DNA from: a virus
Virus record (IMG/VR): IMGVR_UViG_3300025141_000157
Coordinates: 1-49,210 of that record
Strand: one strand, 5' to 3'
DNA length: 49,210 nt
How positions within the stretch are numbered: the first letter of the stretch is position 1; every line of letters starts with the position of its first letter. The translations under genes and the position numbers were made by a program. The notes below the pieces were generated by a model. The model saw only the letters and a list, made by a program, of their open reading frames with translations, was not told the origin of the DNA and ran no database searches. Shown one piece after another: positions 1 to 36,796 of this stretch.

Positions 1-3000
1 GGAATATTCCCTAGTTTATCAGCATGTACAGCACAGTGTCAATCTTATTCATGTACAACAAATGGTTGTTACGGTCCTTTTGTAGGAACGGGGAATACAG
101 GAACTTATTTAGAAATGTCCTCATGTACCGCAACATGTTATCACTTTGAATGTGTAACATCTAGTTACGCGGCATCAGGAATCTTACCAAACGATTATAA
201 CTCTGCATCATCAGGAACAACAAACGGTTGTTTACAATTACCTGGTAGTGGAGGAACAAGCCCTAATGCTTTAGGGTTTAACGAATACACAACTTTATCT
301 GCTTGTACGGCTTCTTGTGTGTCTTGGCAATGTTGTGAACCACTATCAATAGGCCCAGACAGTGTAATGTATGTTTACTACGACATTACTTCTATGGACG
401 CCACTCAAACACAGAACGCTATTAAAGGTATTATTGATTGGACGGAAAACCATCTAGAATTTACAGGACATACCTATCACATGTTATGGTGGTCGGAAAG
501 ATGGTTAGCTTTCCCTACTGTCGCATACGATATGGATGTGTATAGATTTACCGATGGGGTACCTTCATCTTACCTTACAGACCCTAATAATTTAGCGGCA
601 GGTATAAGTTATGACGCACCAGCTATTTGGGGTTATATGGGGTTTGGTCAATCCTCCTCAGCATACTGGACCTCTTCGACTAGTAAACCTGTACAAGCGT
701 TAAGAGATGTATATCATCCAACAACTGGATTTGATTCTTGGATTACACCAGGCACATATAATGGAAACGCAACACATACTGTTCATGATAGTTTTTCACC
801 TGGAAGTACCAGCCCAACTTGGACGAATGGTCAGGTTACAAAAGGTTATGGTGGAGTAATGACGGCATCTACGTCAGACGACGTAATTACCATAATATTC
901 GAAGACGAGTCAGTTTCTCAATACCATTACCAGGGTAATGGTACTTCATTTGGTAATGAACCACATCAAGCCTATAAAGATGACCACACAAGATATTTCG
1001 CGATACACGACGCTGTTACCGCAACCACTCAAGGTGGGGGTACCGGAGGTAACATAAGAAGTTTTCTCTACCCTACAGTTACTACTTTAGGTGGTTCAAA
1101 TACTGCAGCCAAAGGTTTTGCTTTACATTCTATAGCTGCGATAGATAGTGGGACCAATAGTCCACTAGATGGTAAATGGACTTCAGCAACATATCCTTTA
1201 GATAATAACGCTTATGGGTATGTACAACCTTGGACACACGCTCAATGTAGCGTAATTACTCAGCTAAGTATATTAGTTTCACAAAACCCTTACTGGACTG
1301 GTACAGTACCAACATGGGGTGGACTAGACCAATATGGATGGTCAATTAATTTTAGATTTGACATATATGACCAAACTATTTTTGAAGAAGATTTAACTTC
1401 ATTTATGACCGGTAGTTCTCAAGCGTGTACAACTATATGTACATCAGGACATACTGCACTTGATGCCGAATTCCCATATAGTTCACAAACTCTATGTGAG
1501 GGACTAGTTAGTTTAGGTGAGTGTACGGGGTGTACTAAATTTAATTGTGGTCCAAACGGATGTTATACAGCAGCAACTGGAGAATTTGATTGTCTATCTG
1601 ATTGTACGGCATCTTGTTATTCTTATTCATGTACAACAACAGGTTGTACAGACCACAACCCACCAACAGGAACAACTTTCCCATATACATCAACAGATGG
1701 TGTGAGTTATTATTCATACTATGGTAGTGGTGGTACATTTAGTAGCAATACTGATTGTGAGTTAGTATGTAATAGTTGGGAGTGTGGTCCTGGTGGATGT
1801 TATATGCAAACAAATGGTACAGGAGGAACTTATAGTAGTGAGACACACTGTCAGCTTGAATGTTCAGGTTATAACTGTGACCAACAATTCGGGTGTATCC
1901 CAGAGATTGGTAATGACTATGAATACGCAACATTACTAGAGTGTCAGACTGGATGTACTTATTGGGAGTGTGATGTGGTACTGGGGTGTATATCAAAAAC
2001 CGGTGTTACGACAGGTTCCATATACGAATTTCAGAGTCAAACCGCATGTACTAATTATTGTGCATCATTTAATTGTGGAGTAAACGGATGTTATGAATTA
2101 AATAATTTATCAGGTACGTACCAAGATATAACTCTATTACCTATAATTTCATCTGCAGCATGTACCGCATCTTGTATATCATTTAATTGTGGTACTTCAG
2201 GTTGTAGTGAAGTAACAGGTACTGGTGGAACTTATAGTACTTCAGCTTCTTGTACAGGAAATTGTGTATCTTATTCTTGTGGTACCGATAGTAATCCTGG
2301 TTGTAATTTATGGAACGTACCAAACTACGGTACAGGTGGTACTTGGACATCAGTTATAGACTGTGACAATAATTGTATATCTTGGGAATGTGGTTCTGAA
2401 GCTTTGGGGGATTTATACAACGGAACCCCAACGGGATGTCTACCACAATCATATACAGGTGGTTCATTTAGTAGTTTAACACATTGTTTGGAGGAGGGAT
2501 ATGACTATCTATCACCAGACTATACAAATACTGGTAATTGTACAACTTGGGATTGTTCTGCTACTGGATGTATACCATTGACTGGTACTGGAGGACAATT
2601 TGTTTCACTGTCATCTTGTACGGGCGTATGTACATCATATGAATGTATTCCAGGTACAGCAACAAAACCGGAAGGTGGTCAGATATGGACTGGTGGTGGT
2701 TGTACACTCTATAACTCACCAAACTACGGTACTGGTGGAACTTTCCTATATGAATGGCAATGTAGTGGTGAATGTAGGTCTTGGGACTGTACAAGTACGG
2801 GATGTACTGAAGTAAGTGCAGGTGCGGGTAGTGGAGCAACTTATCTAACTGCATTAGCTTGTGATAGTGGATGTACGTCTTATAATTGTGGTGACACCGG
2901 ATGTACCTCACAAGTAGGTTCGGGAGGAACTTTCTTTAGTTCTACAAATCCTGATTGGGGTGTCACAGCGTGTACAGCAACATGTATCTCTTATGATTGT

Positions 3001-6000
3001 GGTATACCAGGATGTTACCAATACAATCAACAACTAGGAGGTGGTTCAGGGGGAACTTTCTATAACGCTACCGCATCAATATCAGCATTAACAGCTTGTA
3101 CCGCAGCGTGTATATCATACGAATGTACGACAGGTGGTTGTTCAGACATACAAGGTACTGGAGCAACAAATTCTTTCTCAGCTGAATCAGCATGTACCGC
3201 TACATGTATTAACTGGGGATGTCTAAACAACCCAATAGAAACAAACTGTGAAATTTATGCATATTACGATACAACCTCAATGGACTTTAACGCGGTAAAA
3301 ACGGCGATTACTGGTCTAGAGGATTGGATTACGACCATACAAAACTTTACTGGTGGTTTATACCACACATTAGTTAATGATGAAAGGTGGCTAAGTTGGG
3401 CTAGTTCAGTATACCATTCAGAATTTACAGCAGGAACCTCATCCATATTCCAAAACCCAACAGCAATGATGATTCATGATTGGGCGAGTGGGTTGTCTAT
3501 GACGAATGTTTATGATAATATGGCACCGGGTAATTCTACATTCCTATTCCCAGGAATAACAACAACAGGTCCAGCACCAGCGGCCTCACATACGGATTGT
3601 GTTTTAGTTATTACATTTATAGATGAGTCAGGACCTAATAATGGTCTGGGTACAACCAATGTTTATACTTCGGATGACGCGGGTAGTGTGAATAACGCTA
3701 TTCCTAATTTTGCAGGTATTTTATCTAACCCACTAGACCAACCAACACCAACGTGGAAAGTAGACTTTACCGCTTACTCAGCTACATATGCTACAGTAAC
3801 TACAGCAGGAGGGTCATTAAACTGTTTCATGTACCCAACAGAATCTTTCCAACCTCAGTCACCGGATAATGAATTATTCGCGTTACACGTGGTTGCAGCT
3901 ATTGATTCAGGAAATCAAGCAGTGGGAACTCAAGGAGAAAATTGGTTACCAGGTACTGCACCACGTAGATTAATTAGTGGTGGAATCCTAGGTGGTGTAC
4001 CAGAGCTATGTTCAATAGCAGACTTAACAGCTTTAGAGGTTAGTAATCCTTACCTCTTGTCAGTTGATTCCTACACACCAAATGTAGGTAACCTAGATAC
4101 TAAAGGATGGGGTTATAACATAAACTTTGGTTCTTACACCCCAGGTGGATTCAATAGTGATTTGAGTACTTTCTTAAATACAGTATCTTCTAATTTAACC
4201 TTATGTGTGTCAGCAAACACCATACCAACGATAGAATATCCATTCCCTACTCAATCTGCGTGTACTGCAGATTGTTACTCTTATGAATGTACATTCAATG
4301 GTTGTGTTGAATTTAACGGAACAGGTGGTACACCGACTTATTACCCTACTTTACTAGAATGTGAAAGTGCGTGTACTTCATGGAATTGTACAACTACAGC
4401 ATGTACAGTACAAGTAGGTACTGGAGGTACTTGGTTGAGTTCAGGAGCCTGTACCACAGCATGTACATCATTTAATTGTGAAGATATTACCACATACACC
4501 CCAAGTGTGTCGTGGCCAATAGCAAATGGATGTATAGAACAAACGGGTTCTGGTGGAACATTCTATGGAGCGGCAGCTGGAAGTTCAGGTAGTTCTATAT
4601 TTGGTTGGTCCGCATGTACTGCAGATTGTCAATCATGGAATTGTCTTGTAAATTGTACCGGTGGTACAACAGGATGTACAGCATGGCCAAATACGGCAGC
4701 AACATATACCGCTTTAACCTCGTGTACCGCAAGTTGTTCTATAGATTGGTATTGTACAGAAGCATATGAAATGGATACGTGTGATGGTTTAACAGATACC
4801 ACTTATGTAGATATGAATTTCTATGGTAGTGGAATACCATATTTTTCTGATAACCCAGGTAATCACACTCTAACTTTTGCAAATTATAAGTTTACAAGAA
4901 TTCTGGACCCAACACTACAAGCTTCATATACTACACCATGTGTTTCACCTTGGAACGCTTCTCATTACCAAGGACCACTACCTACGAGTATAGACCCATT
5001 ACAACCATACTTACCGAGTACTCTGGGACGTTATTCTTATATACAATATCTAGAAATATATGATACAACTTCACCAATACCATATCCAGGTAATGTTATA
5101 TCTGGACCACACATTAATTGGAGTAGTACTATCGCTGGTATATTAGGAATAAGTGACCAATGTTTACAAACTCAAGGATTGTCAACAAGTTCAAGCTGGT
5201 TGGATGTACATGCAGCTCTTGTTAGTTGTAACTACAACTTACATGCAACTTACAATTGGTGTACTTGTTATGAAGTACCGTGTGATGTTTTCTGTGACGA
5301 TGGTAATGTTACCATACCTGTTACAGCACAAGGACCATTTACTACTTCAGGTGCAGCAGAATCAGCATGTTGTGTAAGTGTAACATATAGTTGTATAACT
5401 GGTACAGAGATAGATAGTTGTAGTGGTAGAACAACTTTACCAGGACAATTTAATTCTACAACAGATGCTTGGGATTGGTTAGCAGTTAATTTAGGAAATA
5501 CTGATTTAACTACTTTACGATACGAGTCGACAACTCCAGCCGTAAATGTTAGTGGGGCATGTGCAGGACCAAACGGTGGTGTACTATATGAAATAGCACC
5601 AGTAACATACTCATTACTAAACCCAAATGTAAGTTATAATACTTGGAATTTATTTATAAATCAGATGCAGGGTGCTGGTACAACAGGTATCTTATCGGGT
5701 ATGAGTTATACAGATGTAAACACTTATGTTTACGCACAATCAGGCCAAACTATACAAGTATGTGATGAAATATGTCATTGTTCAGTTATACCATGTGAAT
5801 GTATTGAACTTTATGATGGTACAGGACAATATTTAACACATGAAGACTGTATGTCAGGTACTAGTACTTTAGCAGCATGTTGCCCAAATACCGGTACAAC
5901 TGGTACGTCTTGGGATTGTGTGTCAGGCATAACATACCTACCAATATGTGACACAAAACCATATATTGGTAACTTTAACGACCAGTTTGCCACGGTTGAC

Positions 6001-9000
6001 TACTTTAGAGTAGGAAACCCAACAGGTATCTTTGGACAACACAAATACACAGCAAGTAATGTTATAGATAATAACGGTACTAGTAGTGTAGTCATACCAA
6101 ACACATGGGCAGAAGTACAATCTAGTACTAACCCTGGGTACACATGGCAATCATGTTATAAAGAATTTAGTTTAACGTTATGGATTGCGGCGACGGTCGC
6201 TTATAGACCATATCAGTATATTAAAAGTATTTCACACCCAGCAGTTACAGGTGGTTTAGAGTATACTAACTGGAATGCATTCTATACAGCGGCAGCAGGA
6301 GCTTTTACACTAACAACTTCGTTAAACGCTCTCCAAGTTTGTCAAAGTATCGACAGTCAATATTGGGGTAGTAATAACTTTGGTTGTGTGGTAGATACAA
6401 TGAAGTGTTGTAACCAAGAAGATTGTTATTGTTACGAAACATTTACAACAGGGGGTACATACTTTACCGAAATACAATGTCTCGACCCATTAACTGGTTG
6501 TTGTCCAGAATATACTGGATGGACATGTGAAGTCGTAGACCCAATCACTTTAGCTGTAACAACTTCCTTACCTTGTTACTTTATTAGCCAAAGTTCACCA
6601 ATAATGTTATACCACACTATTGATACACCACTCAACATACCATTAGGAGGTGCACAATGGGAGTGTGACCAAAACTTTAGTTATTGTGACCCAGTACCAG
6701 TAGGAGAGATGTGGTCTTGTGTGACAACGCAAGTTAACACATGTGACCCTAACGGGGATAGTTTAGGTGAAATAACTGGAACCACACTAGGTCCAAACAT
6801 GGTACAAACCGACTTTACTTATGGTCAAGTACCTGGTTACCAATTACACCCTTCAATGTTATGTGATAACCCAACATACCCACTTGTGGGCACCTGTCAT
6901 ACTCAATATCCATTCTCAAGTAGTACAGACCAATTCTGGCCACTACTACAATCTACATCTCTAGCAATAGGAGCTTATTTAGGTGGGTATGGTCAAGTAG
7001 AAAGTATATTAACTGATTATCACTATTATGACCCATATACACCATTATCGTCTACTACATTCCAGTTAGGAAGTGTGGATATATTAGGTACAAGCCTTAT
7101 AAACCCTAATGACCCATCATGTGTGTATCCATTACCATATACTGTACCGCCGGAAACTTGTATGGGTATAAACGCAACAGGTGGAACAGGAATGCCACTG
7201 TTCAGTATTTTAAGTGTTGCACATAGAGATATTAATTATAACACACCGTATGGTTCTTGGGGTGAATTTATAGATGCAGCAATATTATTAGGTTATAGTG
7301 TTAACACTAACCATAATGTAGACCAGTTAGGGCAGCTTTACCCGTTAACATTTGGTTGTGATGAAGACATAATCACTACCCAAACCTCAACTACTGGAGC
7401 AGCATGGTATTCAGGGTGTGGATGGTCCTTTGATATGGTACCTTGTTTATGTGACATAACATGTTGTTGTGAAACTGGATTTACACAAGGATTCATTACC
7501 GAAGAAGAATGTTTAGACCCAGTTAATGGATGTTGTCCAGAACTAAGTTCTTATACATGTACCATTAATGGTTGTATAGACCCAGGGAATGGTAGTGGAG
7601 AATTTACTGGATTAACAGCATACGCACAATGTGAAGCAGTATGTAAAGAATGGAAATGTATATCAAGTACAACTGTAACAGATACATGTGCAAGTAAAAC
7701 AATAATACCGTCATTAGGTAATATTGATATTACAGAGTATACACCTAGTTATAATACTTTAACTAGAGGTCCATGGGATGCTTTAGCTTACTTAGCGGAC
7801 CCTATGAATGGACTACAAGGACAAACATGGGACAACTACAAATGGGATTGTGGTGAAGGTTGTGGTTGGGCTGTTGATGATTGTGACGCACCTCATGGAG
7901 CATATAAATTTATAAGTACTATAAATATACTAGACCCAGCACCTTCAGGTGGTTGGTATTGCCAAAACTGTGGGTCAGTTTCTAATTGGGCAGATTTAAT
8001 TTCATGGATGAACCTTAATATAGGTGGTGGAACTGCTTTATTTAATCTAGGTCAGGACTATAACCAAGTAGCACAAACTCTATGGAATGGAATTCCAGGA
8101 ACCAACTTTAACGGTGGACTAGAACTAGTACCTCAAATAGGAGCTTGTTCATGTATACCAGGACCTTGTGATTGTGTATTAACCGGTGGTACCGGACATA
8201 GTGGTACTTATCACTTAGTCACTGGACAAACACAGTGTGAGTGGGATTGTTGTTCAGGGGTAACTATCCCAGAATGCTCTATCCTAATTACTGGTAAAGA
8301 AGAAGGAGTACTTTACTACCAATTCGATACTAACTCAACAACTAAATTATTTGATACACCACCATATGAGAGGTTAGATATAGCGGCAAGACAAAATAAA
8401 TTATGGGTTTATGCGGACACGGGAGCAGCTTATGAAATTAAAGAATTTGATGTAGTATACTACCCATACTTCCAACACCTATTTAATAGGGATATTACTG
8501 TACCTGCAATTGCGATGGGTAGAGGTCTAACACCAACAGAAGACCCTAATATATTATTAACAGCAAATGATAAGGTTTATAAAATAGATATAACCACAAC
8601 TGTTGCAGTACCTACTTTACAATTCCCTCTACCTAGTGGGTTAACTTGTACTGGTGATATTATGTATGACCACATTACGGGCAACATGATTATTACTTAT
8701 GGTACTGGTGCTACACAATATGTAGGTAAATTTGACGGTGGAGGTAATCTTCTAGAAGAAAGTCATATCAATAGTACTACACCTGGTATAGGGGTTAATG
8801 AAAGTATAGACAGTTTATTCAACTACGGTACCTGGTCACCAGTTATAGTTAATCAACAATACTGGAATGGTAACACTGGACCTATATATGGAATAACAAA
8901 TCAGAGAAGAGTTATCGAGTTACTCCAAACTCCAACATTACAATTTGCACCAGTAGCAACACAAACATTAACACTAGTTAATCAAATAAGTAATGAGGTA

Positions 9001-12000
9001 CATGGAGCGACAAACATATTCAATATAATAAACGGGCAACTTAAGAGTTGTGTGGATATAACAGGTACAACCTCAATAGACGATGTATATTGGTGTGATG
9101 GTATGTTAGGGTGTCTACCTTATCCACCAAACGTTACTCCACCTAATTCATTTGGTCCACACATAGACTTATTAACATGTGAAAACCATTGTAATTTTGT
9201 TTGTGGTGACTGTGTTCAAAGTTGTGAGTGTACACTCGTAACCACACCTATTGGAAGTGGTTGTAACCCAGAACCAACTATGGCAGATTGTATATCACAA
9301 AATCTAGCTAATCCAACTACTGTGTATGGTGGTGAAGGTTGTTGTAACTGTTTCGCTTGTCAATCAGTAACGTTTACATATTATGAACCAACAGCTGGTG
9401 TATGGACACAACAAACCGTTAATACCAACATAAATACTTGGGGTACTTTCGCTTCGGCATGGTCTCCAATAATTTATAGTGTAGGTGATGTTGTTATGTA
9501 TACGGACCCATTAGGTAACACATGTTGTTACACACTGGTTTACCATCACTACGATGAAACTCAAACTCCGTACGATGCATGGACAGAATACTCAACAAAT
9601 TTAGCTAACGGAAATCCAACATGGCCAGGAGGAAGTAATGAAATTTCGTGGATAGTGTGTGATGAAGATTGCCCAACGATAATTACATGGTCTTGTATTA
9701 CTGGAACGACAGTAGTTTCAAATGACACATGTGGAGGAGCAGTAGACACTGGAACTGGAGGGTTATCTTTTACACCACAAATACAATATATTGCATATAA
9801 TGGTTATGCTTTATGGCATACACAATTTGAGGATTTAAAATGGGATTGTGGTAGTCAACAAAATCCATTACCAGGAAACCCATGTCCAGCAATGATTGGA
9901 CATTGGGCTAAGATAATTGGTTGTAGAATAACACATGTTAGTGGTGCACTAGCAACACCATCACAAGGAGTGATACAAACTACATGGGCTGACTTTATAG
10001 ACCAGATTAATGGTTTATTGGGTGGAAGCGTTTACAGTTTCGCTTACAGTGATAGATGGCAAGATTTAGAAGCTATTCTTGGAAGTCAAAGTTACGACGG
10101 TTCACCAGTTCCAGGAAACGCGGTAGACATAGAATGTCTATGGGAATATTGTGAATGTAACCCAACACTACCATCTCCACTTGTCGATGGTTGTGATGAC
10201 AAATCTGATATCACTAATACTATGAGTGCTTGGCAGACGGCAAATGGTATGTGGTGGCAAATGACCGTAAATTATTTCACCACACCAGGACAACCACAAT
10301 ATAATACATTAGCCGACCCTAATTCAGGGGATATAATTAGTAATTACAAATATGAACAACCAGATTTCCCTGGTAGTCAGAATCCATGTTATGGTCCATT
10401 AGGTGGAATCTATAGGTACGTCAATAAATTCGGTATTACTGGATGTAGAACTAGACATGCGGTCCAAACGGCAGCACAAGCTCAAAACGGTCATGTTAAT
10501 TATGGTCAATTTGTTGATTTCTGGAATAACCAAGGAATGTTAGGGACCGCCGATGAATTATACTATAGTGACCCATACACAACAAACTTTACAAAAGTAG
10601 AGGATTGGTGTGGTACGGGCCCAGACCCAGACAATGGAAATAATAATGCAATTGGTGGAAGTGCTATATGTAATTGTACATACCCACCAACACCTTCTTA
10701 TGAGCCTTGTCATTGTGAACCTATTTATGGACCAGGAGGATACCCAACATCAGCTATATGTGAAGAAATATGTTGTTCGGGTGACACGAGTTGGAGTTGT
10801 AATACGGGTACCACTATTGCGTGGGAAGACTCGGTAGATTGTGGCACTAGACCATACCATTTACCATCTTTGGTAACAACATCTACCGCTACTGACAATA
10901 TAAGTCCTACAGGACAACTTGCAAATCCAGCAAATGGACTACAACAGACACTACTGAGTCAATTGAAATTTGCCGCGGGGACCGTTAACAATGTAGCAGT
11001 AGCAGCGTTTGGTATCGGTCAATTCCCTAATGAATGTTGGGATGTTGAGGAGGTAGCGGTTGTTTATGGACCTGATTCTGCGTGGAGAACTATCGGTGAA
11101 GTAAAAATAATGTTATTCCAATCAACACAACCACCTACACCGGCAACAGTTATTCAATCTACAGTTTCATGGAAAGACTTGATAACTCAGCTCTCGTCTC
11201 CACCACACAATTTCAGTGTTAATTTAAGTATGACAGCACAACAAGTGGTGAATACGATAAATGCACAAACCACACAATTGGTTCAGGTTCAATTAGGATA
11301 CTCTGTAAATATGTGTACTTGTCCACCAACCCCTTGTGGGTGTACGGAGATACCGGGAACATTAGGGTATCCAACATCGGCATCTTGTGAAGCTGTATGT
11401 TGTCCTATAACAGCTGGTACATTATATGATTGTACAATTAATGGTTGTATACCATCATCTAATGGTACGTATAGTAACTTAACACATTGTGAAGAAGTTT
11501 GTAAAGAATGGATTTGTGATGAAGACGGGGATTGTATTGGTTCATGTGATATGGGTGGAAATAATACACCAAGAACAGCATATCCACTCTGGTTATTTGG
11601 AACACCAGAGGACCTATTACCTTATCTTGCATCACCGGCAACAATACCGTTACAATCGCCATTACTACCACCTATTGTTGGTAATATGCAAAACGCGGAT
11701 GTGACTTATTATAAGTTTGACTGTATAAATTGTTCGTCGGCAGCAATACAAACATGTCCATCTCCAAATGGAACTTATTGGGCACCTTCAGGTATGTGGA
11801 TAGAAAATACACCTAATGCCTCACCAATGGTTTACTCTGGACCACACTACACGTGGCAAGAGGTTGTGAATGCAGCTGTAACTCAAGGATTTATTGTGAA
11901 CAACAACACATCATATGATGACTTTAGAACAGAATTATCTTTATTAGAAAGACAAGTAGTGATTAAAGGAAACCCTTGTTATGGTAGTCCTACTGGATGT

Positions 12001-14718
12001 GATTGTGTACCTATCCCTGGTACAGGTCATACTGGTGGATGGGAATATACCACAGGTAATTACCACCCATGTGTATCTGCGTGTTGTTCAGGTGACACCT
12101 TTGATTGTACATTATATGGTTGTGTACCTAATATGACTAATTCAGGTCAATACCTATCAATGTCCTCATGTACAGAAGATTGTAAAGAATGGGAATGTAT
12201 ACCAGGTATTAACTTCACTAATAGTTGTAGTGGACAAACATTACTAAACATAGATTGGACTAGTACACCATTAGGTACTAATGGGTTCTTTGACCAAAAA
12301 CAATTATCCTACATCGCAGACTCTGCAAACGGATTACAATTCCAAGATGTAACTCAATATAAATGGTTTAACCAAAATGGTCCAGTATCAAATTCTAATA
12401 GTTACTGCACACATCCTTTTACTAGTGGTAATACCACAATGCAATTCGATTTAAGACCGTTCCTGGCTATTGTAACAACTAATAATTCATTCTCACAGAA
12501 TAATGCAGTATTTACTAACGCTGATAATTATAACCCATCGACACTCGCTTGTGACTCAACTGGTTGTAGATTTAGTACTTGGGCACAATTAGTTACTGGG
12601 TGTAATATAATGGGTGTGACAGATTGGTTTGGTAACCCAATAACACTCTCGAACACTTATATGGAGGTTAGGTCAGCTATATCATCTCATTGGGGGATTG
12701 TAGGTTCTATTTTAAGACTTTATAGTAATGCTTGTCTTTGTTATGGAAACGCATGTTCATGTTTAACAGTAGCAGGTACAGGACACACAGGAAATTACTA
12801 CACAGACTTCAATAGTTGTAATATAGCAGCAAACGCGAACCCATGTTGTACACTACCTACAGATTATTGGTACTGTCAACCGGGACTAAACACACAAAAC
12901 GGTTTACAAGGTAATTGTACATGTATACAAGGAATAACTGCAGGTCAACCAGGAGCTTACCCAACACTAGCAGATTGTAAAGCATCGACTGGTAATTGTT
13001 GTGATAATCATTGGTACGATTGTCTGGACCAGGGGACACCACAAGCAGGTTGTGTTGGATTAGCAAATAATGCTGTGGGACAATATCAAACATATATTGA
13101 TTGTTATCATGATTGTGATAAATTAGGTTATAATTGTGAAATTGTTGATGACGGTCCTGGTAATTCAGGCCCGGGAGGTTCAGGATATCTTTCTTGTGTA
13201 CCTTGCGTGGGAATCACATGTCAATATACTTACCTAACAGCAGCAGGGGCACCGTATTACGGGGACCCACTTGCACAATGTCAAGATAGTTGTCCAGGAA
13301 AAGACTGTTGGAAATGTTGTATGGATAAAAATGGGTGGATTACTCAGTTAAGTCCAGCATTATCACCAATACAATGTGTTTGTCCTAAAGGAACAGTAGA
13401 AGTACAATGTGACGGAAGTGGACCTTGTCCACATCCAGTATCTTGTATACCAGGATATGTTTATAATTGGACTTACTGTAAATGTGTATGTGAACCTAAT
13501 ATGTCATGTGCACCAGGTTACCATTGGAGTTATGACGCATGTACTTGTGTCCCTAATATTATTGGACCAGTTGATTTTGTAGGTTCACAAGGGGAAGTAC
13601 TACAAAGTATGGCAAACTTTAAACACCAACCAGGAGAAAGACCTATTATAAACGAATTTATAAAAGGGGTACAATTACTAGAGTATATGACGACAAAAGG
13701 TTATTACCTAGGTAGTGATGAATGTAGTCATTGTACTGATGGTACTCAAGGAATTTGTGTATTAGATGGATGTTTATATTTCCCTAATTATGAAAAATAC
13801 GGAAATAAGTATATAGGGTGGAAAAGTTTACTAGTTACAGGTAGTGACCCACAACTAACGACCGTAACACCAACCATAGGGCCACCAACAACACCTATCC
13901 TAACTGGAGCAACACTACAAGGTTATAGTTGTATTGACGACCCTACAAATCCACCAAATTACACTAACTGTGTTATGTATGGTACATCACAATATGTGGC
14001 TTATTATGGGACAGCAGCCCCACAATACGCAACCCTACAAGATTGTTTCATAGCAGGGTGTGATTTTTCAGGGAATGTACAAACAGTAGGGTTTAGTTGT
14101 GTAGATAACCCTGACAACCCACCAACCTATACTGAATGTTTAGAATATGGTACAGCACCTTATTTAGCTTACTTTGGGAACGCTGCACCACAATATTCAA
14201 CACTACAAGACTGTTTCATGGCAGGATGTGATTTTTCAGGAAGTGTATATTACCAATGTACAGTAGAAACAAATCCATTAGTAGGTGAAAGTCAACAATC
14301 ATGTATACCAGTTGATGGTGTAAGTGGTCCAGGATTATTTACCTCACTAGAAGATTGTTTAAATAGTGGTTGTGCTGGATGGATGGCATGTGACCAAACT
14401 AAAGTTACACAAGTTAATGGTATAGGTATAGAAGCAAATTCGATTTACCCAATCCCAATGTGTTGTGAAAGTTATATAAATTCAGCAACCATCCCATTAA
14501 CAGTAGAAAATTGTCAAAGTAACTGTAGTAATATGAGTGAACCTTGGTTCCCACTATATAATGTTATCGGAATAAATACTTATTATGAATCACCATTAGG
14601 TTATTTAATGAGAGAGTTGAATCCATATGTTAGAAATGGTACTTGTGCGGTTTCACTAACACCAGATAGTATAGGTAGAGGAAGGACCCAAAGAACTATA
14701 TATGATATAAATTATTAA
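1..14718 (+). CDS. Giant cysteine-rich repeat protein, 5' end outside the window
   Basis: The frame is open from base 1, so the first ATG at 115 is internal and at least 4905 residues are present. Most of the protein is short cysteine modules of the form C-T-A-x-C-x-S-[Y/F/W]-x-C-x(3)-G-C, followed by a G-T-G-G-T-[Y/F] strand. Two vWA-like blocks (about residues 117-475 and 1075-1400) interrupt the modules. From about residue 1580 a second, longer module type recurs, opening with W-x-C-x(2)-G/T and often containing A-N-G-L-Q or K-W-D-C. A beta-propeller-like stretch lies near residues 2757-3020. The C-terminal 350 residues contain P-G-E-R-P and a tandem duplication. No membrane segment is seen in the visible part. 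I infer a disulfide-rich virion surface protein such as a fibre or adhesin; a secreted protein is also possible. I do not recognise a named family for the whole. The downstream 39-codon ORF starts one base after the stop. Confidence 0.85.
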   Translation, partial: GIFPSLSACTAQCQSYSCTTNGCYGPFVGTGNTGTYLEMSSCTATCYHFECVTSSYAASGILPNDYNSASSGTTNGCLQLPGSGGTSPNALGFNEYTTLSACTASCVSWQCCEPLSIGPDSVMYVYYDITSMDATQTQNAIKGIIDWTENHLEFTGHTYHMLWWSERWLAFPTVAYDMDVYRFTDGVPSSYLTDPNNLAAGISYDAPAIWGYMGFGQSSSAYWTSSTSKPVQALRDVYHPTTGFDSWITPGTYNGNATHTVHDSFSPGSTSPTWTNGQVTKGYGGVMTASTSDDVITIIFEDESVSQYHYQGNGTSFGNEPHQAYKDDHTRYFAIHDAVTATTQGGGTGGNIRSFLYPTVTTLGGSNTAAKGFALHSIAAIDSGTNSPLDGKWTSATYPLDNNAYGYVQPWTHAQCSVITQLSILVSQNPYWTGTVPTWGGLDQYGWSINFRFDIYDQTIFEEDLTSFMTGSSQACTTICTSGHTALDAEFPYSSQTLCEGLVSLGECTGCTKFNCGPNGCYTAATGEFDCLSDCTASCYSYSCTTTGCTDHNPPTGTTFPYTSTDGVSYYSYYGSGGTFSSNTDCELVCNSWECGPGGCYMQTNGTGGTYSSETHCQLECSGYNCDQQFGCIPEIGNDYEYATLLECQTGCTYWECDVVLGCISKTGVTTGSIYEFQSQTACTNYCASFNCGVNGCYELNNLSGTYQDITLLPIISSAACTASCISFNCGTSGCSEVTGTGGTYSTSASCTGNCVSYSCGTDSNPGCNLWNVPNYGTGGTWTSVIDCDNNCISWECGSEALGDLYNGTPTGCLPQSYTGGSFSSLTHCLEEGYDYLSPDYTNTGNCTTWDCSATGCIPLTGTGGQFVSLSSCTGVCTSYECIPGTATKPEGGQIWTGGGCTLYNSPNYGTGGTFLYEWQCSGECRSWDCTSTGCTEVSAGAGSGATYLTALACDSGCTSYNCGDTGCTSQVGSGGTFFSSTNPDWGVTACTATCISYDCGIPGCYQYNQQLGGGSGGTFYNATASISALTACTAACISYECTTGGCSDIQGTGATNSFSAESACTATCINWGCLNNPIETNCEIYAYYDTTSMDFNAVKTAITGLEDWITTIQNFTGGLYHTLVNDERWLSWASSVYHSEFTAGTSSIFQNPTAMMIHDWASGLSMTNVYDNMAPGNSTFLFPGITTTGPAPAASHTDCVLVITFIDESGPNNGLGTTNVYTSDDAGSVNNAIPNFAGILSNPLDQPTPTWKVDFTAYSATYATVTTAGGSLNCFMYPTESFQPQSPDNELFALHVVAAIDSGNQAVGTQGENWLPGTAPRRLISGGILGGVPELCSIADLTALEVSNPYLLSVDSYTPNVGNLDTKGWGYNINFGSYTPGGFNSDLSTFLNTVSSNLTLCVSANTIPTIEYPFPTQSACTADCYSYECTFNGCVEFNGTGGTPTYYPTLLECESACTSWNCTTTACTVQVGTGGTWLSSGACTTACTSFNCEDITTYTPSVSWPIANGCIEQTGSGGTFYGAAAGSSGSSIFGWSACTADCQSWNCLVNCTGGTTGCTAWPNTAATYTALTSCTASCSIDWYCTEAYEMDTCDGLTDTTYVDMNFYGSGIPYFSDNPGNHTLTFANYKFTRILDPTLQASYTTPCVSPWNASHYQGPLPTSIDPLQPYLPSTLGRYSYIQYLEIYDTTSPIPYPGNVISGPHINWSSTIAGILGISDQCLQTQGLSTSSSWLDVHAALVSCNYNLHATYNWCTCYEVPCDVFCDDGNVTIPVTAQGPFTTSGAAESACCVSVTYSCITGTEIDSCSGRTTLPGQFNSTTDAWDWLAVNLGNTDLTTLRYESTTPAVNVSGACAGPNGGVLYEIAPVTYSLLNPNVSYNTWNLFINQMQGAGTTGILSGMSYTDVNTYVYAQSGQTIQVCDEICHCSVIPCECIELYDGTGQYLTHEDCMSGTSTLAACCPNTGTTGTSWDCVSGITYLPICDTKPYIGNFNDQFATVDYFRVGNPTGIFGQHKYTASNVIDNNGTSSVVIPNTWAEVQSSTNPGYTWQSCYKEFSLTLWIAATVAYRPYQYIKSISHPAVTGGLEYTNWNAFYTAAAGAFTLTTSLNALQVCQSIDSQYWGSNNFGCVVDTMKCCNQEDCYCYETFTTGGTYFTEIQCLDPLTGCCPEYTGWTCEVVDPITLAVTTSLPCYFISQSSPIMLYHTIDTPLNIPLGGAQWECDQNFSYCDPVPVGEMWSCVTTQVNTCDPNGDSLGEITGTTLGPNMVQTDFTYGQVPGYQLHPSMLCDNPTYPLVGTCHTQYPFSSSTDQFWPLLQSTSLAIGAYLGGYGQVESILTDYHYYDPYTPLSSTTFQLGSVDILGTSLINPNDPSCVYPLPYTVPPETCMGINATGGTGMPLFSILSVAHRDINYNTPYGSWGEFIDAAILLGYSVNTNHNVDQLGQLYPLTFGCDEDIITTQTSTTGAAWYSGCGWSFDMVPCLCDITCCCETGFTQGFITEEECLDPVNGCCPELSSYTCTINGCIDPGNGSGEFTGLTAYAQCEAVCKEWKCISSTTVTDTCASKTIIPSLGNIDITEYTPSYNTLTRGPWDALAYLADPMNGLQGQTWDNYKWDCGEGCGWAVDDCDAPHGAYKFISTINILDPAPSGGWYCQNCGSVSNWADLISWMNLNIGGGTALFNLGQDYNQVAQTLWNGIPGTNFNGGLELVPQIGACSCIPGPCDCVLTGGTGHSGTYHLVTGQTQCEWDCCSGVTIPECSILITGKEEGVLYYQFDTNSTTKLFDTPPYERLDIAARQNKLWVYADTGAAYEIKEFDVVYYPYFQHLFNRDITVPAIAMGRGLTPTEDPNILLTANDKVYKIDITTTVAVPTLQFPLPSGLTCTGDIMYDHITGNMIITYGTGATQYVGKFDGGGNLLEESHINSTTPGIGVNESIDSLFNYGTWSPVIVNQQYWNGNTGPIYGITNQRRVIELLQTPTLQFAPVATQTLTLVNQISNEVHGATNIFNIINGQLKSCVDITGTTSIDDVYWCDGMLGCLPYPPNVTPPNSFGPHIDLLTCENHCNFVCGDCVQSCECTLVTTPIGSGCNPEPTMADCISQNLANPTTVYGGEGCCNCFACQSVTFTYYEPTAGVWTQQTVNTNINTWGTFASAWSPIIYSVGDVVMYTDPLGNTCCYTLVYHHYDETQTPYDAWTEYSTNLANGNPTWPGGSNEISWIVCDEDCPTIITWSCITGTTVVSNDTCGGAVDTGTGGLSFTPQIQYIAYNGYALWHTQFEDLKWDCGSQQNPLPGNPCPAMIGHWAKIIGCRITHVSGALATPSQGVIQTTWADFIDQINGLLGGSVYSFAYSDRWQDLEAILGSQSYDGSPVPGNAVDIECLWEYCECNPTLPSPLVDGCDDKSDITNTMSAWQTANGMWWQMTVNYFTTPGQPQYNTLADPNSGDIISNYKYEQPDFPGSQNPCYGPLGGIYRYVNKFGITGCRTRHAVQTAAQAQNGHVNYGQFVDFWNNQGMLGTADELYYSDPYTTNFTKVEDWCGTGPDPDNGNNNAIGGSAICNCTYPPTPSYEPCHCEPIYGPGGYPTSAICEEICCSGDTSWSCNTGTTIAWEDSVDCGTRPYHLPSLVTTSTATDNISPTGQLANPANGLQQTLLSQLKFAAGTVNNVAVAAFGIGQFPNECWDVEEVAVVYGPDSAWRTIGEVKIMLFQSTQPPTPATVIQSTVSWKDLITQLSSPPHNFSVNLSMTAQQVVNTINAQTTQLVQVQLGYSVNMCTCPPTPCGCTEIPGTLGYPTSASCEAVCCPITAGTLYDCTINGCIPSSNGTYSNLTHCEEVCKEWICDEDGDCIGSCDMGGNNTPRTAYPLWLFGTPEDLLPYLASPATIPLQSPLLPPIVGNMQNADVTYYKFDCINCSSAAIQTCPSPNGTYWAPSGMWIENTPNASPMVYSGPHYTWQEVVNAAVTQGFIVNNNTSYDDFRTELSLLERQVVIKGNPCYGSPTGCDCVPIPGTGHTGGWEYTTGNYHPCVSACCSGDTFDCTLYGCVPNMTNSGQYLSMSSCTEDCKEWECIPGINFTNSCSGQTLLNIDWTSTPLGTNGFFDQKQLSYIADSANGLQFQDVTQYKWFNQNGPVSNSNSYCTHPFTSGNTTMQFDLRPFLAIVTTNNSFSQNNAVFTNADNYNPSTLACDSTGCRFSTWAQLVTGCNIMGVTDWFGNPITLSNTYMEVRSAISSHWGIVGSILRLYSNACLCYGNACSCLTVAGTGHTGNYYTDFNSCNIAANANPCCTLPTDYWYCQPGLNTQNGLQGNCTCIQGITAGQPGAYPTLADCKASTGNCCDNHWYDCLDQGTPQAGCVGLANNAVGQYQTYIDCYHDCDKLGYNCEIVDDGPGNSGPGGSGYLSCVPCVGITCQYTYLTAAGAPYYGDPLAQCQDSCPGKDCWKCCMDKNGWITQLSPALSPIQCVCPKGTVEVQCDGSGPCPHPVSCIPGYVYNWTYCKCVCEPNMSCAPGYHWSYDACTCVPNIIGPVDFVGSQGEVLQSMANFKHQPGERPIINEFIKGVQLLEYMTTKGYYLGSDECSHCTDGTQGICVLDGCLYFPNYEKYGNKYIGWKSLLVTGSDPQLTTVTPTIGPPTTPILTGATLQGYSCIDDPTNPPNYTNCVMYGTSQYVAYYGTAAPQYATLQDCFIAGCDFSGNVQTVGFSCVDNPDNPPTYTECLEYGTAPYLAYFGNAAPQYSTLQDCFMAGCDFSGSVYYQCTVETNPLVGESQQSCIPVDGVSGPGLFTSLEDCLNSGCAGWMACDQTKVTQVNGIGIEANSIYPIPMCCESYINSATIPLTVENCQSNCSNMSEPWFPLYNVIGINTYYESPLGYLMRELNPYVRNGTCAVSLTPDSIGRGRTQRTIYDINY
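346..1437 (+). other. vWA-like domain, copy 1, in the giant protein
   Basis: The block opens with a hydrophobic strand and Y-Y-D-I-T-S-M-D, resembling the D-x-S-x-S metal site of von Willebrand A domains but with T-S-M in place of S-x-S. A second strand, I-T-I-I-F-E-D-E-S, lies at about 889-920. An equivalent block recurs at 3223-4215. The fold assignment is an inference from motif placement and could be wrong. Confidence 0.4.
1438..3222 (+). repeat. Tandem cysteine-module array in the giant protein
   Basis: Roughly 15 to 20 consecutive modules of about 30-45 codons each carry C-T-x-x-C-x-S-[Y/F/W]-x-C-x(3)-G-C and a G-T-G-G-T-Y type strand. Spacing varies and DNA identity between modules is modest, so these are diverged protein repeats rather than recent DNA duplications. 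The even cysteine spacing suggests disulfide-stabilised small beta units. Confidence 0.8.
3223..4215 (+). other. vWA-like domain, copy 2, in the giant protein
   Basis: This is the paralogue of the first block. It has Y-Y-D-T-T-S-M-D near its start, a shared D/N-E-R-W-L element about 50 residues later, and V-I-T-F-I-D-E-S in the middle. It ends in the same way, with an aromatic strand before cysteine modules resume. Both copies keep the D-x-T-S-M signature, so that variant site appears to be conserved rather than a random loss. Confidence 0.4.
8269..9060 (+). other. Beta-propeller-like segment in the giant protein
   Basis: This stretch has very few cysteines, unlike its surroundings. It shows repeated strand patterns such as K-L-W-V-Y-A-D-T-G, I-L-L-T-A-N-D-K-V-Y-K-I-D and M-I-I-T-Y-G-T-G, each about 40 residues apart. 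That rhythm resembles NHL or YVTN propeller blades. It is an inference from pattern only. Confidence 0.4.
13921..14256 (+). repeat. Tandem 56-codon duplication near the C-terminus of the giant protein
   Basis: Copy 1 (13921-14088) and copy 2 (14089-14256) start with G-[Y/F]-S-C-[I/V]-D and share T-L-Q-D-C-F-[I/M]-A-G-C-D-F-S-G. They are close at protein level, with many synonymous differences in the DNA, so the duplication has been kept under protein-level selection. Confidence 0.85.
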
Positions 14719-14839: not shown

Positions 14840-15111
14840 TGACAAAAATTATGTTGTACTTTTTGGTCCTATTTCACCATTTAGGTATTATAGGATTTTT
14901 AGTCTCCGCTCCTTTATTAATGATAAAGGAACCATTCTGGGTGTGGTTACCAGTTAATACCTGGATTCTGCATTTAATCTTTTCACCAGTTTTGGTTTGT
15001 CCTTTAACAATATGGGAAAATAGATTAAGAAAAAAATTAGGGTGGGAAAAGATAGACACTTTTTTTAAACATTATTATATTAGACCTTACAAGAGATGGC
15101 GAAAAAAATAA
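14839..15111 (+). CDS. Small membrane protein resembling DUF2784
   Basis: The 90-residue product has two hydrophobic segments, at about residues 5-27 and 36-56. They are followed by C-P-L-T-I-W-E-N-R-L-R-K-K-L-G and a basic tail. The C-P-L-T-x-x-E-N-x-L-R signature after a second helix, with an H-H-L-G near the start, is what I recall of the DUF2784 family of small membrane proteins of unknown role. It overlaps the preceding small ORF by one base and the next gene by 16 bases, so the three are probably one operon. A role in the host membrane is inferred. Confidence 0.7.
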   Translation: MTKIMLYFLVLFHHLGIIGFLVSAPLLMIKEPFWVWLPVNTWILHLIFSPVLVCPLTIWENRLRKKLGWEKIDTFFKHYYIRPYKRWRKK

Positions 15112-18473: not shown

Positions 18474-18497
18474 AAAAGACCCGAAAGGGTCTTTTTT
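18474..18497. terminator. Intrinsic terminator, probably bidirectional
   Basis: A nine-base stem, AAAAGACCC with GGGTCTTTT across loop GAAA, is followed by T-rich sequence on the plus strand and preceded by A-rich sequence that gives T's on the minus strand. It separates two convergent genes. Confidence 0.85.
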
Positions 18498-19005
18498 ATT
18501 TTGAATGGAATGTAACATTCATATGAGTACCTCCTTCACTAGGGAAATGAAATACCGTAGTTACAGTAGACTCCACACTATCCAACCAACCAATAACTGT
18601 ACGGTGAGTCCAAGAATTAATCCAACCATTAACTACTTTAGAAGCTAAAAACTCCAAAGTTTCATCATCCGATAAGTCATGTCTACCCTTATTTCTTATT
18701 GACTTAAATAAACACTCACCATTAGCTGTAGGTGTAAGTTCTTCGTAAGTTGAGTGTCTCATTGTCTCGAATGAAAGTTTAGCGTTCATCTTTGTTACCT
18801 CATAACAATATTCTCTCATATCACCTAAACCAAACTTAGTTATAGTGTTTGGTATCCCATATCCTTTAGTTATCGCGTCCTCTGTTGTTCTATACTCATT
18901 AACTTTTTTCCAGATTAAAGAATCTAATTTTGTACAAGTAACAAAATCTTGACTATAAACTGTTAAACTTAAAATACTTAAAAGTGTAATTAATATATTT
19001 TTCAT
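18496..19005 (-). CDS. Secreted CAP-domain protein, copy 1
   Basis: I place the start at the ATG at 19005 because M-K-N-I-L-I-T-L-L-S-I-L-S-L-T-V-Y-S-Q-D is a clear signal peptide; the 41 upstream in-frame codons lack protein-like character. The 169-residue product has CAP/SCP features: an N-terminal helix with V-N-E-Y-R, a central H with G-E-C-L, and a late W-I-N-S-W-T-H-R-T motif that corresponds to W-x-x-S-x-x-H in the family. CAP proteins are usually secreted, and some bind lipids or polysaccharides. The neighbouring gene encodes a diverged paralogue, probably co-transcribed. Export to the periplasm or cell surface of the host is inferred. Confidence 0.75.
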   Translation of the reverse strand: MKNILITLLSILSLTVYSQDFVTCTKLDSLIWKKVNEYRTTEDAITKGYGIPNTITKFGLGDMREYCYEVTKMNAKLSFETMRHSTYEELTPTANGECLFKSIRNKGRHDLSDDETLEFLASKVVNGWINSWTHRTVIGWLDSVESTVTTVFHFPSEGGTHMNVTFHSK

Positions 19006-19081
19006 TTTATTTTTATTTGTTAGGTTGGTTATTATTATATACGTAAAATTTATCTTTGTAGTTACAGCATTTACATTTTTA

Positions 19082-19621
19082 TTAATGTAGGAATCGGTTA
19101 GGTACTTTTTCATTTTCATCCCAGTCAAGGTTTACATAATAGTCTTTATCTCGAAGAAATTGATATACCGACAAAGCAACGTACCTACCACCAAACGTAT
19201 TACTTTTAAAGACATATACAGCATTAAAACCTCTTTTCATATACTTACTTTCCATACCCTCTTTATGGGATGGAGAATTATTCCACGCGAGTACCAGTGT
19301 TGACGCTATCTCATCCACCGACTTAAGAACTTCGTACTCATCACCAATAGCCATTATCCCGATAATCTCAATTCCCGCAGCACAACCACAGTGATAAATT
19401 TCCCCACCAGACTCCAAGTCATTAATAATCAAGGTTTCAGCCCAAGGAATGGCTCTTTTATTGTCATAGTTAAATTCTACCATGTGCAAACCTAAACTAT
19501 CTCTATGTCTGTTTATCTCATTAAAAATAGCTCTTTCTATGGTTGTATCCCTATAGTAGTCTTGTGAATAAGTTAATAAAGATAGTAAAACTAATAATAT
19601 GGTTGTTGTTATTTTTTTCAT
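19082..19621 (-). CDS. Secreted CAP-domain protein, copy 2
   Basis: The 179-residue product has a signal peptide (K-K-I-T-T-T-I-L-L-V-L-L-S-L-L-T-Y-S-Q) cut near Y-S-Q. A CAP-like domain follows, with I-F-N-E-I-N-R-H-R-D-S-L-G-L at its start and L-A-W-N-N-S-P-S-H-K-E-G-M further on, a textbook W-x-x-S-P-x-H motif. A strand with R-Y-V-A-L-S-V-Y follows. C-G-C-A-A in the middle may form a disulfide after export. It is preceded by a perfect Bacteroidota promoter with the -7 box four bases from the ATG. The smaller paralogue lies 76 bases downstream. Target and role are unknown; envelope modification or attack on competing infection are guesses. Confidence 0.8.
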   Translation of the reverse strand: MKKITTTILLVLLSLLTYSQDYYRDTTIERAIFNEINRHRDSLGLHMVEFNYDNKRAIPWAETLIINDLESGGEIYHCGCAAGIEIIGIMAIGDEYEVLKSVDEIASTLVLAWNNSPSHKEGMESKYMKRGFNAVYVFKSNTFGGRYVALSVYQFLRDKDYYVNLDWDENEKVPNRFLH

Positions 19622-19712: not shown

Positions 19713-20027
19713 ATGGATATTACAACAACACAACAATTTGACCAAATAATTAATGACTCAGATAAAAAAGCTGTATTGATAGATTTTTGGGCTCCCTGGT
19801 GTGGACCATGTAGAATGTTAACACCTACAATAAGTAAACTTTCTCAAACGTACCCAAATAACGTATATAAGGTTAATGTGGACGTACAAAGACAAGTGGC
19901 AGCTAGATATGGTATTCGAGGAATCCCTAGTGTAAAAATCTTCAAAAATGGGGATGTTATGGAAACATTACAAGGAGTACAACCAGAAAATGTATATTCA
20001 GAAAAGTTAAAATACTATATGAGTTAG
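19713..20027 (+). CDS. trxA: Thioredoxin
   Basis: The 104-residue product has the full thioredoxin fold signature. The active site W-A-P-W-C-G-P-C-R has cysteines at residues 30 and 33, the cis-proline at residue 72 is in R-G-I-P-S-V, and the C-terminal helix is present. It reduces protein disulfides in the cytoplasm. In other phages thioredoxin-like proteins can supply reductase partners or processivity factors; nothing here shows which applies. No signal peptide is seen. It diverges from the CAP genes and converges on the minus-strand gene at 20028, whose stop directly abuts it. A TATTTATT-like box lies 39 bases upstream. A link to folding of the cysteine-rich giant protein is inference. 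Confidence 0.95.
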   Translation: MDITTTQQFDQIINDSDKKAVLIDFWAPWCGPCRMLTPTISKLSQTYPNNVYKVNVDVQRQVAARYGIRGIPSVKIFKNGDVMETLQGVQPENVYSEKLKYYMS

Positions 20028-28391: not shown

Positions 28392-28802
28392 TGGTGGAGG
28401 TGGTGGGTTTCGAACCCACGTCTTGTTCATCTTCTACTAACGTCTATCCTACACGTTTAGTTTATTCTTTTGATGTCGGACTTAATCTTATAGAATAAAC
28501 AACCTTCAAATCAGTCCCAAGTCCCCATGTACATCATACCGGCCGAGAACGTTACCGGGGTCGATTTGTCTGTTTGACATCTCATAATCTAAAGACACAA
28601 ATCTTTAATTCTTTAGAAGAGATGGAGCTATGTCGTAACTTAGTTACGCTACAGCCACTGTTGACTCCTCACGGACAAGTCCTAAAAGTGCCAACTTAGC
28701 AATTGTTTTGCCAGTTAAAAAAACGAATCAGTTTTACAAGCTTAATTCAGGCTTGACGTGCTGACATTAATCGACTGATGCCAATCAATTCCAGTCACCC
28801 CC
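28392..28802 (-). ncRNA. ssrA: tmRNA
   Basis: On the minus strand the RNA starts GGGGGUGACUGG and ends with a T-arm (GUGGG, UUCGAAA, CCCAC) and CACCUCCACCA, so CCA is encoded. The seven acceptor pairs form completely and include a G-U at the third pair, the alanyl-tRNA synthetase identity element. The message part reads from 28712 to 28647 with stop UAA at 28646-28644. It gives a 22-residue tag starting G-K-T-I-A-K and ending E-E-S-T-V-A-V-A. The stop lies in a small hairpin (CGTAAC/GTTACG), as in the P5 helix of known tmRNAs. It rescues stalled ribosomes and marks products for proteolysis. The 65-residue gene ends four bases upstream, so both may share one transcript. Confidence 0.93.
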
Positions 28803-34918: not shown

Positions 34919-36796
34919 ATGGCAAAAGTAATTGGAATTGATTTAGGAACCACGAATTCGTGTGTTTCTGTGGTAGAGGGTGGAAACCCAGAAATAATTG
35001 TAAATTCAGAAGGGAAAAGAACCACACCTTCTATAGTATCTTTTAAAGGGGGAGACCGTAGTGTTGGGGACCCAGCAAAAAGACAAGCGGTTACAAACCC
35101 AGAAAATACTGTGTATTCAGTAAAAAGATTTATTGGGAGTAAATTTAGCGAAATTAGTAAGGACGCAAAGAAAATGCCTTACTCAGTAGTTAAAGGAACA
35201 AAAGATATTGTAACCATAAAAGTAAATGATAAAAAATATGTACCCCAAGAAATATCAGCGGTCGTATTACAAAATCTAAAAAAGACAGCGGAAGACTATC
35301 TGGGTGAAAAAGTTACAGACGCAGTAATTACTGTACCAGCCTACTTCAACGACGAACAAAGAAACGCAACTAAAGAAGCGGGAGAGATAGCTGGACTAAA
35401 CGTGTTAAGAATCATCAACGAACCAACAGCAGCAGCACTAGCTTATGGAATGGATAAACAAAATAAAGACATGACTGTTGCGGTATATGATTTAGGTGGT
35501 GGTACATTCGACGTATCAATCCTAGAGTTAGGTGATGGAGTTTTTGAGGTTAAATCAACTAACGGTGATACTCATTTAGGTGGTGATAATTTTGATGAAA
35601 AGATTATTGAGTGGTTACTCGAGGAATTTAAAACAGAGAATGGGATGGACCTATCTAGTGACCCAGCAGCACTACAAAGACTAAGAGAGGCAGCTGAAAA
35701 AGCAAAAGTAGAACTATCCAACTCAAACACAACAGAGATTAACTTACCTTATATTACTGCTGATAGTACTGGACCTAAACACTTAGTTCGTAATTTATCG
35801 AGAGCAAAGTTTGAGTCTATGGTAGAGGATTTGGTTAAGAAGAGTTTAACACCATGTAGGAAAGCATTAAAAGACGCGGGATTAAAAGCAACCCAAATTG
35901 ACGAGATTCTTTTAGTGGGTGGTTCTACTAGAATTCCAGCTGTACAAGAAGCGGTGGAAAACCTATTTAAGAAAAAACCATCAAAAGGAGTTAACCCAGA
36001 TGAGGTGGTAGCAATGGGAGCAGCAATCCAAGGTGGTGTACTGGCAGGGGATGTTAATGACGTTCTTTTATTAGATGTTACACCACTATCTTTAGGTATC
36101 GAGACAATGGGACAAGTAATGACAAAGTTAATAGATGCAAACACAACAATCCCTACATCTAAAAGTCAAGTATTCTCAACAGCAGTCGACAACCAACCAG
36201 CAGTAGACATACACGTACTTCAAGGGGAAAGACCTATGGCGGGAGATAATAGAACATTAGGCAAGTTCCAACTAACGGATATCCCACCATCACCAAGAGG
36301 AATCCCACAAGTTGAAGTGACTTTTGATATTGACGCAAATGGTATTATAGATGTTAAAGCAGTAGATAAAGGAACTGGTAAACAACAAAATATTAAAATT
36401 GAGTCTGGTAGTAGTTTGTCTGACGAGGAGATAGAAAGAATGAGACAAGAAGCTGAAGCAAATTCTGAAGCGGATGCACAAAAACTGGAGAAAATTCAAA
36501 AGTTGAATGAAGCCGACTCACTAATGTTCCAAACTGAAAAACAGATAAAGGAGTTTGGAGATAAACTAGAAGATGCAGATAAATCACGTTTAGAAAATAC
36601 AATTAAAGAACTTAGAGATGTCTGTAAAGAAGAAGATATGGAAGGTGTGGAGGACTTAACTGAAAAGTTAAATAGTACTTGGCAAGAAATTAGTACTAAA
36701 TTATATGAAGCTACGGAACCAGAAGCAACTGAGGATGGTGTACAAGATAACCCAGAAGACTCTGCAACAGATGTAGAATATGAGGAGGTAAAGTAA
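34919..36796 (+). CDS. dnaK: DnaK (Hsp70) chaperone
   Basis: The 625-residue product is a full-length DnaK. It starts [17 protein letters not shown] and has the [10 protein letters not shown] phosphate-site region, the [12 protein letters not shown] loop and [12 protein letters not shown]. The linker [13 protein letters not shown] leads to a complete substrate-binding domain and helical lid. It ends V-E-Y-E-E-V-K, close to the usual D-V-x-F/Y-E-E-V-K end. The protein binds unfolded segments in an ATP cycle and normally needs DnaJ and GrpE, neither of which is in the window. Host acquisition is likely, given its closeness to bacterial DnaK. A terminator follows. Confidence 0.98.

Follow-up and report, generated by a model that had tools for sequence, protein, structure and literature searches.

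The window analyzed here is an entire IMG/VR record (IMGVR_UViG_3300025141_000157), a linear sequence of 49,210 bp that lacks end repeats and is therefore likely a fragment. It opens with the 3′ part of a giant cysteine-rich gene (1..14718, + strand; 4905 codons), which was delineated on the basis of its open frame, an orthologous frame in L109 and dN/dS. The initial annotation had described a frame of more than 4900 residues, still open at the window edge and unusually dense in cysteine, and inspection bears this out: frame 1 runs open from the first base to a stop at 14718, its 5′ end lies off the contig, and 311 of the 4905 encoded residues (6.3%) are cysteine. Threonine (11.8%) and glycine (10.1%) are abundant, where lysine and arginine together make up 2.1%. 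Extrapolation from the split forms of the locus described below, combined with an extra domain half seen in the relative G002, suggests that the full fused protein would span ~5900–6000 aa. The size is notable but not a record, with huge-phage proteins reported to reach 7694 aa (PMC7162821).

A TerL search of IMG/VR returned 503 relatives, and the nearest cultured phages are Flavobacterium phages at ~27% identity. In the closest relative, G002, whose TerL is 93% identical to that of the window, the same giant frame continues without a break across at least 5119 codons (more than 15 kb) at ~65–70% identity to the window protein, and is likewise cut by the contig at its 5′ end. Comparison of the two genes across 4800 aligned codons reveals codon position 3 to be the most variable (0.38 versus 0.23 and 0.20), with dN of 0.24, dS of 0.79 and dN/dS of ~0.3, where the ratio stays below 0.45 in all 800-codon blocks. 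Cysteine is the most constrained among the residue classes tallied, being 97.2% conserved between the window and G002, above glycine (84%) and tryptophan (81%). Across three ortholog comparisons, cysteine conservation is 97.2%, 94.7% and 96.0% against overall identities of 69.7%, 61.6% and 62.4%, respectively, with the split pairs following the pattern seen for G002. Such strong constraint is as expected for disulfides or metal sites. Judged from these alignments, the giant frame is confirmed as a real gene under selection and not a product of chance.

Self-comparison of the window protein resolves two alpha/beta domains, several copies of a 170–220 aa cysteine-containing domain and a propeller-like segment, besides small four-cysteine modules; all coordinates that follow are on the + strand. 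The motif list and self-comparison place a first cluster of hairpin-helix modules at 25..333 (residues 9–111), followed by the first copy of the alpha/beta domain (334..1440), which carries a YVYYDITSM motif at residue 124. The main module array, cluster 2, extends over 1441..3222 (residues 481–1074) and is separated by the second alpha/beta copy (3223..4200) from cluster 3 (4201..4755). The repeated 170–220 aa domains (WxC...TC.G ... TWxDFI ... CxC..PCxC) then occupy 4747..8241, and a beta-propeller-like segment (8263..9030, residues 2755–3010) is assigned on a weak basis, its best match being the U3 snoRNA-associated Utp5 at E 0.2. A block at 9061..9732 best matches a cysteine-rich paralogue from a baseplate gene cluster (33–34% identity), and within it lies a CBM5/12-like segment (9460..9660; WSP..YSVGDVV....CCY....W.VC). 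A second tract of TWxDFI-type domains (9688..12870) includes single four-cysteine modules at 11425–11502 and 12100–12183, and a conserved C-terminal region (14251..14715) is present in only three other IMG/VR contigs, namely G002, G003 and G008. In one split relative, the second giant protein (L106 ORF 6867–12089, − strand) has its propeller-like segment split at residues ~827–954 by a Hint/intein-type domain (PT-HINT, E 1.5e-21; intein splicing motif present).

A von Willebrand-A-like topology was suspected for the alpha/beta domain, where a D-x-[TS]-S spotted by eye recalls the MIDAS of that family (DxSxS...T...D). The AlphaFold model of the domain reaches a pLDDT of 33 and the fold search made from it was uninformative, so the von Willebrand-A identity stays a guess. 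The domain yielded no significant sequence match, and its profile found no match in 148 genomes of the Flavobacteriales order discussed below.

The initial annotation had described dozens of CTAxCxS[YFW]xCx3GC modules. That count is overstated: in its strict form the motif occurs only six times, where a looser Cx3Cxx[YFW]xC junction occurs 24 times, nearly always within residues 1–1600. The natural unit is better written as ~30 residues with four cysteines, comprising [YFW]xC, GC a few residues on, a Gly/Thr-rich loop and Cx3C, and 17 full four-cysteine modules match a strict regular expression. They lie mainly in residues 1–1600, with further single copies around residues 2518, 3809 and 4034, and the other two thirds of the window protein consist of other repeated domains. 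The structure prediction that had been proposed for single modules was run with AlphaFold2 on a pair (4282–4479, in cluster 3; 19 aligned pairs), and returned a hairpin plus helix twice at a pLDDT of 78.5. The best match of this model among solved structures is non-significant (TdPI, E 0.62), and the best matches by sequence profile are anntoxin and Ixolaris (E 0.08–0.1). All three we take to be Kunitz-type or Kunitz-related. Fold search and sequence profile agree on the Kunitz class, although neither is significant: the phage module bears a weak sequence and fold resemblance to Kunitz/BPTI proteins through its hairpin and Cx3C helix, but has four cysteines rather than six and half the size, and Pfam gave no Kunitz (PF00014) match. 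Aligned module triples varied too much to serve in a scan of the collection, for which degenerate DNA patterns were used; one locus recovered by that scan, L004, was judged a chance match.

G006 and G008 also encode the baseplate-cluster paralogue, a protein of 2454–2883 aa with 8% cysteine, located between baseplate wedge genes, which were read as gp25- and gp6-type from matches to baseplate wedge subunit PHROGs, and large downstream genes. A scan with the N-terminal 700 residues of this protein recovered 14 contigs, some near-identical, encoding proteins of 2454–2966 aa with 8% cysteine. As far as each contig reaches, the order is invariant: gp25, gp6, 1170 aa, 600 aa, 295 aa, the cysteine-rich protein, 305 aa and 1150 aa. 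Residues 3021–3244 of the window protein match the paralogue at E 1e-17 to 7e-27, with weaker matches elsewhere; common to both proteins are the TWxDFI-type domains and the CBM-like block. The four-cysteine module profile found no match in the contigs that carry only the baseplate paralogue. Among WSPxxxYxxGDVV...CCY segments, 5 of 17 match Pfam CBM_5_12 (PF02839; best E 3.3e-5), whereas the window copy does not, and the full-length paralogue scores 18 bits, under the curated cut-off of 26.2 bits. The position of the paralogue inside a baseplate gene cluster in 14 contigs points to a virion protein. The window gene itself, in contrast, lies outside any conserved tail or baseplate cluster, so it is paralogy that would place its product in the virion.

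To the question of export, the split relatives are the most informative. In G003 and G008 the locus takes the form of two adjacent ORFs (2955/2948 and 1593/1740 aa) whose starts are visible, where the N-termini, MSNKCWVLVNDN / MADKCWVLLNDN and MSWNSIKVD / MATWNDIKVN, are hydrophilic and only 1–12 codons separate the upstream stop from the start. With so little room, no signal peptide fits in either phage, and an N-terminal Sec signal peptide is accordingly absent from both relatives with visible starts, the N-terminus of the window protein lying beyond the contig. Across all the proteins, the Kyte-Doolittle mean stays below 1.8 in every 19-residue segment, and the T9SS sorting domain (TIGR04183/PF18962) was found neither in the C-terminal 905 aa of the window protein nor in L107 ORF b, nor by Pfam. 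The suggestion in the initial annotation of a secreted product is thereby disfavored. A GCTDxxATNYDPTATxNC motif occurs inside the split giant proteins (G003b residue 652, G008b residue 668), and one of the same kind is found in the module-bearing bacterial protein L221.

The module is not confined to phages. The DnaK encoded in the window is closest to that of a Flavobacteriales metagenome-assembled genome (68%), and the phage module profile finds six matches in that genome. Matches extend to seven of ten genomes of its family and, at the level of its order within the Flavobacteriales, to 39 of 396 genomes, every one of them 1.0–2.0 Mb in size; among 395 Bacteroidota drawn across the phylum, only the centre genome matches. 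Most bacterial carriers have apparent N-terminal signal peptides, as read by eye, and six of the eight tested pass the curated cut-off for T9SS type A, where the T9SS-positive carriers also bear such domains as glucose/sorbosone dehydrogenase, nuclease-like or copper-binding ones. A reciprocal profile built from 25 bacterial modules matched five of eight phage proteins but not one of 48 control sequences, either reversed or shuffled with cysteines fixed; the match thus goes further than cysteine spacing and indicates a real family common to phage and bacteria that is extracellular in the latter. The likeness to T9SS cargo of small-genome marine Flavobacteriales (e.g. L221, L222, L223, L234 and L236) thus extends to homologous modules of 28–32 residues with reciprocal profiles. 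The architectures differ, however: the bacterial proteins are mostly 325–1403 aa among the matches listed, hold 1–5 modules in those read, and have in most cases an apparent signal peptide and as a rule a T9SS domain, whereas the phage protein has at least 4905 aa and ~20 modules, with no T9SS domain and, in the relatives, no signal peptide. Since the modules belong to the same family as those that these bacteria place before T9SS sorting signals, the phage probably acquired them from its hosts.

The module family has no name in Pfam or NCBIfam. A known family matching over most of the length of the giant protein was sought in Pfam, PHROGs, PDB and GenBank phages, and none was found: Pfam and PHROG searches gave no family at curated cut-off, a PDB sequence search with the whole protein gave no meaningful match, and tblastn against GenBank phages returned nothing for both halves of the window protein, relative ORF a, the baseplate paralogue or the neighboring wedge protein. 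The statement in the initial annotation that no described family has this layout therefore stands for Pfam, PHROGs, NCBIfam and GenBank phages, but not for the module itself, which is common to T9SS cargo of small-genome Flavobacteriales.

Three described systems invite comparison. In crAss-like phages, bacterial-type BACON domains occur in tandem in association with the tail, so that there too a protein of Bacteroidota phages repeats a bacterial extracellular domain, with a presumed role in host binding (PMC6949934); BACON is an Ig-like fold, however, whereas the module here is cysteine-rich, of another fold and more numerous, and no BACON domain was found by Pfam. The contractile injector AlgoCIS, from a Bacteroidota species, depends for firing on a disulfide in its baseplate and has a cage with putative carbohydrate-binding modules (PMC13314943), a likeness that joins a contractile-tail baseplate, a functional disulfide and putative carbohydrate binding, though it involves one critical disulfide in a baseplate protein as opposed to hundreds of cysteines. 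The recently described moraphages, which the phages studied here resemble when set against the published description, are aquatic with predicted Bacteroidota hosts and encode DnaK/DnaJ, glutamine synthetase, glutaredoxin and gp6/gp25 (PMC12619734). Markers of this type are found here as DnaK, Clp-type ATPase and glutaredoxin-like genes in the window, gp6/gp25 matches in relatives, and glutamine synthetase-like and DnaJ-like genes read by eye in G008, but the moraphage description mentions no cysteine-rich giant proteins (PMC12619734).

The neighbors of the giant gene in the window are small genes, including secreted CAP-type proteins. Two adjacent CAP-like proteins, read by eye, are encoded at 18496–19621 (− strand) and have orthologues near the giant gene in relatives, and in each of the two split-locus relatives the gene immediately upstream of the giant gene is lipoprotein-like (MKKYLLSL..TSCQKEDD; L107:18652–19359 and L110:8069–8767, both − strand). 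More distant phages encode T9SS cargo of their own, namely proteins of 1049–1123 aa that have an apparent signal peptide, repeat GCTDPxAxNYxPxATxDDGSC in tandem and carry a T9SS sorting domain (L244:5419–8796, − strand; L246:4154–7303, + strand; similar in L247–L249). Many proteins encoded in the window (at 15096, 16724, 17252, 22459, 23255, 24067, 25498 and 31582), and similar ones in G003/G008, begin with one of two N-terminal sequences, K-x-LTESQLxxIIxxI(L)xEQ or ILxEINRxREIMGLxxLxE, each of which runs up to an [LI]xE site around residue 20. By sequence, they resemble a capsid-targeting tag of the T4 type that the prohead protease cleaves, which would mark a large head-packaged set. The same phage fragment encodes a full-length DnaK (34919–36796), a Clp-type ATPase (32703–34739) and a tmRNA gene (28392–28802), as well as a thioredoxin-like (WCGPC) gene (19713–20027) and a glutaredoxin-like gene (36870–37304), the last two of which could perhaps matter for the reduced state of the giant protein before lysis.

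Considered together, these observations lead us to favor, with reasonable though far from complete confidence, a disulfide-stabilized virion adhesin assembled from host-type extracellular modules. The virion location is suggested by paralogy and the nature of the modules. The giant modular adhesin would belong to the phage particle, its most likely position being at or close to the tail tip or baseplate, and would be synthesized in the host cytoplasm without a signal peptide. Each ~30-residue module would consist of a beta-hairpin and a helix clamped by four cysteines, such that lysis into oxygenated sea water could lead to formation of two disulfides per module. The long oxidized chain may then stay protease-resistant outside the cell and offer carbohydrate-binding-like as well as alpha/beta domains for contact with the surface of its host, a marine member of the Flavobacteriales. 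Cytoplasmic synthesis and the constraint on cysteine are supported at the sequence level; the later steps, together with the timing and pairing of the disulfides, the ligand and the identity of the host, are what we infer. The proposal in the initial annotation of a disulfide-stabilized fiber or adhesin that matures after lysis thus gains support of an indirect kind, from near-invariant cysteines, relatives that lack signal peptides, a paralogue in a baseplate cluster and modules found in secreted bacterial proteins.

Several other explanations were weighed against this one. Export from, or display on, the infected cell, with the protein altering the host surface, blocking superinfection or acting in the surrounding matrix, is the main rival and would account for modules that are those of T9SS cargo and for a neighborhood encoding secreted CAP-type proteins and, in relatives, a lipoprotein. 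More distant phages with the same 113-aa neighbor gene encode cysteine-repeat-rich T9SS cargo within a few kb, and phage-encoded T9SS cargo has been reported previously (Cryophage, PMC7468147). We nonetheless regard export as rather unlikely, given that relatives with visible starts have neither a signal peptide nor room for one (the N-terminus of the fused form lying beyond the contig edge) and that the C-terminus lacks a T9SS domain. A little less probable again is a virion protein whose job is structural, serving for instance as a head decoration, a tail sleeve, a ruler or a long whisker. Such a role would suit the size of the protein, its modular repeats and its kinship with a conserved protein of the baseplate cluster, but CBM5/12-like segments and modules homologous to extracellular bacterial proteins favor surface binding, and the form of the locus is variable, being fused in two phages, split in two and without trace in other contigs, a pattern more in keeping with an accessory protein for host contact than with a core ruler.

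Metal binding by the cysteines (zinc or iron-sulfur), with the protein remaining in the reducing cytoplasm, was considered and judged unlikely, indeed quite improbable. Four cysteines per module is also the count of a zinc site and the phage carries thioredoxin-like and glutaredoxin-like genes, yet homologous modules occur in T9SS-exported proteins, where disulfides are expected, the spacing (Cx4C...Cx3C) and the hairpin-helix model resemble disulfide modules, and lysine plus arginine account for only 2% of residues. Least credible is a pseudogene, chimaera or assembly artefact. While a contig edge cuts the frame in the window and its closest relative alike, an independent contig holds the same frame intact, and a broken frame, looked for in relatives only, was not found; the intact frame in the relative and the dN/dS values led us to reject both pseudogene and chance.

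A phage adhesin built from bacterial-type extracellular domains is a known kind of protein, where the unusual features of this candidate adhesin are its likely disulfide chemistry, its size and its host-lineage specificity. Structural proteins that phages make in the cytoplasm generally contain few cysteines. In contrast, this marine phage group encodes giant proteins with ~85–310 highly conserved cysteines each, one of them encoded within the baseplate cluster in about ten distinct phages, such that the hardening of tail parts by disulfides may be a regular strategy of phages in sea water. The occurrence of one module in a phage protein and in the secreted proteins of a narrow bacterial group also provides a concrete host prediction for an uncultured phage, in which certain marine Flavobacteriales are the likely hosts. 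In a bolder form, which we consider unlikely, the phage would have turned a lineage-specific extracellular module of its host into a giant disulfide-dense virion fiber that folds only after lysis and docks like-to-like with module-bearing proteins of the host surface. The common module makes molecular mimicry at the cell surface a testable idea.
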